Source: Planctomycetia bacterium (lineage in GTDB: Bacteria; Planctomycetota; Planctomycetia; Pirellulales; JALHLM01). From it: a stretch of 44,953 nucleotides of DNA. Positions 13,947 to 16,384 of this stretch are shown piece after piece. The notes beneath the pieces were generated by a model. It saw only the letters and a list, made by a program, of their open reading frames with translations. It was not told the origin of the DNA and ran no database searches. Each line of letters starts with the position of its first letter. The stretch's first letter is position 1. The stretch spans positions 1 through 44,953 of the forward strand of contig JAWXBP010000210.1 in the NCBI GenBank assembly GCA_034440135.1, written 5' to 3'. A program made the position numbers and the translations under genes.

Positions 13947-14054
13947 CACGCCAACCCGAAGCGCCAACGAGGGGGAGTTGACGTTGCTGCTCAGCGCGAC
14001 ATCGCGCTGAAACGCGACGGCCGTTCCCCCTCGCTGGCGCTTCGGGTTGGTGTG
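13947..14054. repeat. Palindromic element of the planctomycete 'NPKRQRG / SLALRVG' family
   Basis: Two 30-base arms, 13947-13976 and 14025-14054, are complementary except at two positions (left arm core CCAACCCGAAGCGCCA). Inside is a second, perfect hairpin at 13992-14009 (CAGCGCGA, two-base loop CA, TCGCGCTG). Translated, the arms give the peptides NPKRQRG and SLALRVG that recur in spurious planctomycete ORFs. The element lies directly upstream of ettA, ending 28 bases before its ATG, so a hairpin in the ettA leader is possible. Confidence 0.85.
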
Positions 14055-14082
14055 CTTTTTTTGCCCCTCAGAGCGTGACAAA

Positions 14083-15756
<1,674 letters not shown>

Positions 15757-15848: not shown

Positions 15849-16013
15849 ATGACGGTCACGCACGTCGGCTCGAATGAGCAGTACGCCTCGAATTGGGAAT
15901 CGATCTTCACCAAGCGGGCGAAAAAGCAGGGAGCCGCCACGAAGACGCCGGCGAAGACCAAGGCCAAGGGAAACGCCAAGAAGCAGACGGGCACGAAGTC
16001 ACGCAAGAAGTGA
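15849..16013 (+). CDS. Small lysine-rich protein of unknown function
   Basis: 54 residues starting MTVTHVGSNEQYASNWESIF, followed by a tail of about 30 residues made almost only of Lys, Ala, Thr, Gly and Arg. The head looks like a conserved short motif (I recall similar THVGSN-like small proteins from other planctomycetes, but could not check). The tail is like those of nucleic-acid-binding or histone-H1-like proteins, so RNA or DNA binding is a guess. Its start is uncertain: the in-frame ATG at 15849 begins the protein-like part, whereas a start at 15774 adds residues without character. It lies 92 bases after ettA and 42 bases before the SelW-like gene, all on the plus strand, so the three may share a transcript. 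Confidence 0.6.
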   Translation: MTVTHVGSNEQYASNWESIFTKRAKKQGAATKTPAKTKAKGNAKKQTGTKSRKK

Positions 16014-16040: not shown

Positions 16041-16047
16041 AAGGAGG
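16041..16047 (+). promoter_or_regulatory. Strong Shine-Dalgarno site of the SelW-like gene
   Basis: AAGGAGG ends eight bases before ATG 16056. It is one of the few near-perfect ribosome binding sites in the window and decides the start upstream of the in-frame TGA, showing that the segment before the TGA is meant to be translated. Confidence 0.85.
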
Positions 16048-16055
16048 CCCAAACG

Positions 16056-16298
16056 ATGAAACTGCGACTGCGCTATTGCGCGATGTGAAACTACGAACCG
16101 CAGGCCGTCAGTTTGGCGAGCCGGCTGCTCAAGCAGTACAAGCAACGGATTGAATCGCTCGAATTGGTCCCATCGAGCGGCGGGTGTTTCGAGCTCACGC
16201 TCGACGACGACCTGATCTACTCGAAGCTCCGCACCGGGGAATTTCCCGACGAGGCGAAGTTGACCAAGCAGGTCGGCCAACTGCTCGCCAGCAAGTGA
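16056..16298 (+). CDS. SelW/Rdx-family selenoprotein with in-frame TGA (Sec11)
   Basis: An 80-residue reading frame from ATG 16056 to TGA 16296-16298, interrupted only by TGA at 16086-16088. Before it is MKLRLRYCAM and after it NYEPQAVSLASRLLKQYKQ; the TGA sits where SelW/Rdx proteins have the second residue of their CxxU or CxxC redox motif (Cys8-Ala-Met-Sec11). Downstream, LELVPSSGGCFELTLDDDLI and GEFPDEAKLTKQV match the Rdx fold (family segments VPGTGGxFEVxxDGxLI and GxFPExKxLKQ). Both halves being in one frame, with a strong Shine-Dalgarno site at 16041-16047, argue for selenocysteine insertion rather than decay. The family consists of thioredoxin-like redox proteins of poorly known substrate. 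Sec machinery (selA, selB, selC, selD) is not in the window, so UGA decoding is inferred. Confidence 0.85.
16086..16128 (+). promoter_or_regulatory. Candidate bacterial SECIS hairpin directly after the Sec codon
   Basis: By eye, 16100-16107 (GCAG, bulged G, CCG) can pair with 16122-16128 (CGGCTGC), giving a seven-pair stem with one bulged G and a 14-base loop. It begins 11 bases after the TGA, the kind of spacing known for SelB-binding hairpins in Escherichia coli. Bacterial SECIS sequences are poorly conserved and the coding sequence is GC-rich, so this fold may be fortuitous; folding software was not available. Confidence 0.45.
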
Positions 16299-16313: not shown

Positions 16314-16384
16314 AGGTCAGGCTTTCCAGCCTGACAACTCTCCGGACGCTGGTGAGGGACCAGTCAGGCTGGAAAGCCTGACCT
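16314..16384. terminator. 22-bp perfect inverted repeat, probable bidirectional terminator
   Basis: Arms 16314-16335 (starting AGGTCAGGCTTTCC) and 16363-16384 are exactly complementary over 22 bases, with a 27-base loop. The element lies between two convergent genes, the SelW-like gene and the toroid protein gene, whose stop codon begins four bases beyond it. Each arm is itself partly self-complementary (TCAGGCTTTCCAGCCTGA). It may be a dispersed repeat that serves as a terminator; no U-tract is present. Confidence 0.65.

Follow-up and report, generated by a model that had tools for sequence, protein, structure and literature searches.

An Rdx/SelW-family gene with an in-frame TGA codon at the selenocysteine position in a Pirellulales planctomycete

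In marine metagenomes, no selenoprotein family has proved more abundant than the SelW-like proteins, with 48 genes identified in the Sargasso Sea data and 427 in those of GOS (PMC1088965, PMC2398784). Forms with cysteine are few in selenocysteine-using bacteria (PMC1794560), and planctomycetes equipped with the full selenocysteine machinery and selenoproteins have already been described (PMC4807772). The locus studied here lies on the forward strand of a 44,953-nucleotide stretch of DNA of a Pirellulales planctomycete (GenBank assembly GCA_034440135.1, contig JAWXBP010000210.1, positions 1 to 44,953), the whole of which is referred to as the window. The original prediction had proposed a SelW/Rdx-family gene in which a TGA codon takes the position of the redox-active residue. 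The gene comprises the following features:

16041 to 16047, plus strand: Shine-Dalgarno sequence AAGGAGG, with the ATG 8 nt downstream, as read directly from the sequence
16056 to 16298, plus strand: selW-like selenoprotein gene of 80 codons plus TGA stop with a CxxU motif (Cys8, Sec11), assigned from the sequence, the PF10262 and TIGR02174 profiles and a structure model
16086 to 16088, plus strand: in-frame TGA, predicted selenocysteine residue 11, assigned from the same codon in related loci and the single TGA in most PF10262 matches across the phylum
16296 to 16298, plus strand: TGA serving as the actual stop codon of selW, from the sequence

From the ATG at 16056, which follows a Shine-Dalgarno sequence rated as good, the frame translates as MKLRLRYCAM-U-NYEPQAVSLASRLLKQYKQRIESLELVPSSGGCFELTLDDDLIYSKLRTGEFPDEAKLTKQVGQLLASK when read through the TGA at 16086-16088. 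The prediction that the frame runs through a single TGA and that the gene's own stop is also TGA describes the sequence exactly. With the in-frame TGA read as cysteine, the product scored 72.2 bits against PF10262 (cut-off 22.6) and 67.3 bits against TIGR02174 (cut-off 34.2). An AlphaFold2 model (pLDDT 91.9) showed a strand at residues 2-8 and a helix at residues 14-28, with the CxxU motif placed between strand 1 and helix 1 as in a thioredoxin-like fold, and the Foldseek matches of this model were SelW-family structures. Family alignment, Pfam and fold agree in pointing to SelW/Rdx. It is confirmed that 16056-16298 represents an 80-residue Rdx/SelW protein in which the Sec slot of CxxU is an in-frame TGA. 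The standard-code list of open reading frames keeps only a 61-amino-acid, TTG-started remnant (16113-16298), consistent with the expectation that the gene would be cut short or overlooked by automated gene calling. No cysteine paralogue of SelW was found above the cut-off in the window's genome.

The conservation of the TGA codon was determined in two sets of sequences. A homologue scan of 84,980 species genomes by exact motifs, which favours sequences bearing EPQAVSLA but has no bias towards TGA, led to 39 related loci from Planctomycetota, Verrucomicrobiota, Acidobacteriota, Zixibacteria, Chloroflexi and Gammaproteobacteria. All 39 carry TGA in this codon, with the frame open beyond it as far as the contigs reach; judged from these sequences, such conservation is far above chance. 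The apparent invariance of EPQAVSLA in these 39 loci stems in part from the motif with which they were searched for: sequences drawn by profile vary there yet retain the TGA. In 392 genomes spread evenly over the phylum, an independent search by profile, free of motif bias, gave an Rdx/SelW (PF10262) match in 143; among the matches listed, nearly all have exactly one TGA, and 11 are free of stops. One non-TGA homologue (L084), when read through, has cysteine in the Sec slot. Reading UGA as a stop, a blind spot of standard annotation, hides what is a common planctomycete gene. In the part behind the TGA, comparison with the nearest relative (L008, identical to the sequence in the same-genus assembly G001) revealed 11 synonymous and 3 non-synonymous codon changes (dN 0.019, dS 0.34, dN/dS about 0.06). 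This selection at the protein level indicates that the part downstream of the TGA is translated. Rather than a normal stop followed by decayed sequence, the relatives have kept both the TGA and a constrained frame.

These data also bear on the possibility that the TGA arose from faulty sequencing or assembly, or as a real nonsense mutation in a decaying cysteine-type SelW gene. The genome is a draft in 534 contigs in which selD was not found, which would fit such an origin, but the TGA recurs in independent assemblies of several phyla, the frame behind it is unbroken at the low dN/dS given above, and the cysteine form is rare in selenocysteine-using relatives. Error or decay is, hence, extremely improbable.

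Genes for the selenocysteine machinery were searched for in the window's genome (G000), the draft of which is 96% complete. The tRNA-Sec gene selC, with anticodon TCA (UCA in RNA), and a full selA (568 bits) are present, whereas of selB only the first ~208 residues were found, at a contig end (245 bits); this fragment shares 94% identity with the complete selB from G001. selW and the machinery genes are located on separate contigs. The search for selA, selB, selC and selD called for in the original prediction found selA, selC and the selB N-terminus, but no selD in the draft: neither an HMM search nor a search with the G001 protein found more than weak matches, which probably represent related ATP-binding kinases. 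selD is present in G001, and we infer that its absence here reflects an assembly gap in the 534-contig draft. Alternatively, the gene may have been built for selenocysteine and selD then lost from the source genome, so that the source species would produce a truncated protein. While the failure of both searches would agree with such a loss, selA, selC and the start of selB are intact, selD exists within the genus, the draft is demonstrably gapped in selenocysteine genes as selB is cut by a contig end, and purifying selection still acts on selW, leaving this alternative very unlikely. In G022, a genome of the same order, four selD genes were detected above the cut-off (contigs C1, C97, C80 and C21), each with one in-frame TGA, an unusual redundancy of Sec-containing SelD.

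The distribution of SelW was further compared with that of selD and selA. Among 29 further genomes of the genus and order, the TGA form of SelW occurred in 12 of the 14 that have selD over the cut-off vs none of the 15 that do not (Fisher p 1.8e-6, uncorrected for relatedness, which inflates this statistic). In G006, the sole genome that lacks selD yet encodes a SelW protein, the SelW frame is not interrupted by a stop. In the phylum sample of 392, SelW and selA were found together in 128 genomes, SelW only in 15, selA only in 111 and neither in 138, corresponding to an odds ratio of 10.6 (p 3e-20), likewise uncorrected for and inflated by relatedness. Some of the 15 genomes with SelW only carry the TGA and may be incomplete assemblies. 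The continuation of the frame past the TGA might also be explained by a near-cognate or suppressor tRNA that decodes the UGA, or by a genome-wide reassignment of TGA, with Trp, Gly or Cys inserted in either case instead of selenocysteine. Genome-wide reassignment was rejected because selW's own stop is TGA, and this terminal codon, the tRNA-Sec with its UCA anticodon, selA and the selB fragment in the genome, the constant position of the TGA in the CxxU slot and the tracking of selD by the TGA form together speak against any such non-selenocysteine reading, to which we assign a negligible probability.

Bacterial decoding of UGA as selenocysteine involves an RNA hairpin (bSECIS), for which the following rules have been given: a loop of 3-9 nt, an upper stem of 4-16 bp, G within the first two positions of the loop, a distance of 16-37 nt to the UGA and an MFE <= -7.5 kcal/mol (PMC13188914). 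Directly behind the TGA of selW, a candidate was found by folding, covariation and these rules:

16103 to 16122, plus strand: bacterial SECIS-like hairpin with stem GGC-CGUCA / UGGCG-(A bulge)-GCC and apical loop GUU from 23 nt after the UGA

The hairpin falls within all of these limits, with a loop of 3 nt starting with G followed by U, a spacing of 22 nt between UGA and loop, and, including a short outer stem, an energy of -13.1 kcal/mol. Taken alone, its stability is ordinary compared to dinucleotide shuffles; support for the putative hairpin comes from comparison across sequences and not from its stability in the window. A complete, ungapped core stem of six pairs was present in 20 of 44 distinct sequences, a number reached in 0 of 2000 codon-preserving shuffles (mean 10.2) in which synonymous codons were shuffled within columns. 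The window's own stem has one bulge and, hence, is outside these 20. At synonymous sites of the 44 sequences, the pair +18/+30 was seen as C-G, G-C, U-A, A-U and G-U, a covariation signal that is inflated by relatedness. In seven relatives, a GUG valine codon breaks the stem; there, a hairpin shifted towards the UGA is possible, also with GU in the loop. The RNAalifold consensus energy was no better than the codon-preserving null (144/200), probably because the two hairpin registers coexist, while the mean single-sequence energy (1/200) was informative, as was counting defined pairs. A search of Rfam gave no match to a SECIS family at the TGA and only sub-threshold matches to an inverted repeat further downstream.

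A SelW-like selenoprotein with SECIS-directed UGA decoding is almost certainly the best explanation of these observations. SelB carrying Sec-tRNA(UCA) would bind the hairpin with its GUU loop just 3' of the UGA, which would then be decoded as selenocysteine, while the terminal UGA, lacking a hairpin in this role, would act as stop. The predicted product would adopt a thioredoxin-like fold with Cys8-x-x-Sec11 between strand 1 and helix 1. Actual insertion of selenocysteine in the source organism is suggested by sequence evidence. Based on CxxU and fold, SelW most likely is a small thiol/selenol oxidoreductase, and it presumably has a thiol partner or substrate.

The genes upstream of selW are arranged as follows:

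14047 to 15756, plus strand: ettA (energy-dependent translational throttle protein), its place ahead of selW conserved in several relatives, with the part homologous to relatives from about 14083
15849 to 16013, plus strand: 54-amino-acid lysine-rich mini-protein (MTVTHVGSNEQYASNWESIF...KKSRKK), conserved immediately 5' of selW in Pirellulales and in other planctomycetes

The mini-protein has no match in Pfam or NCBIfam. About ten planctomycete loci encode it upstream of selW, with a conserved N-terminus (VGS..YA..W...F.KK, followed by a lysine-rich part). The order ettA, mini-protein, selW occurs in the window, in L014, L018, L045 and G380, and in others. In G380 it is followed by proC on the opposite strand, a small ORF, selB and selA, and in G012 the order is mini-protein, selW, proC, small ORF, selB, selA. 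In a verrucomicrobial locus (L029:3001-5755), selW, selD and selA are arranged head to tail, and selA matches at about the same distance were found in five further loci (L024, L027, L030, L031 and L035). This gene linkage ties selW to selenocysteine biology, and the repeated placement of selW beside selB, selA and selD in relatives provides a testable lead on the role of bacterial SelW. More tentatively, and rather doubtful at present, the association of ettA, mini-protein and Sec-SelW, joined by selB-selA or selD-selA in relatives, might reflect a functional link in which SelW is not a generic antioxidant but takes part in the handling of selenium or in a feedback on Sec translation, the undescribed mini-protein belonging to the same unit. 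A literature search did not find this neighbourhood described.

Two repeats were also noted. A perfect inverted repeat (GTCAGGCTTTCCAGCCTG / CAGGCTGGAAAGCCTGAC) is located just 3' of selW at 16316-16382; the window holds its arm in two exact copies vs 0.01 expected, and the repeat may represent a terminator or a dispersed planctomycete palindrome. An inverted pair of AACCCGAAGCGCCARCGAGGG (which reads NPKRQRG) occurs at 13953-14048, again in two copies vs 0.01 expected.

What is new here is this member of SelW, the conserved neighbourhood of ettA, lysine-rich mini-protein and selW, and the linkage to the selenocysteine machinery. The gene resembles those of bacterial SelW-like selenoproteins (SELENOW-like, PF10262) in family, size, CxxU motif, a SECIS-type hairpin directly after the UGA and co-occurrence with the selenocysteine machinery. 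Hosts of SelW-like genes in a genome survey from 2006 include Deltaproteobacteria, Clostridia and Symbiobacterium (PMC1794560), whereas the present gene belongs to a planctomycete of the Pirellulales. A profile built from 26 homologues retrieved the solved bacterial SelW-related structures 2fa8, 2obk, 2oka, 2p0g and 3dex, distant proteins of other phyla that share the fold (query-normalised TM of the model against the crystal structures 0.81-0.91) at 25-33% identity, and also mouse SelW (2npb; E 2.4e-6, TM 0.72), with which the CxxU motif is held in common. Eukaryotic SelW depends on a SECIS of other structure in the 3'-UTR (PMC1088965), whereas the hairpin here is located in the coding sequence right after the UGA. 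Reading the in-frame UGA of selW as selenocysteine has very good support, and the gene is a genuine new member of the bacterial selenoprotein family known since 2005.
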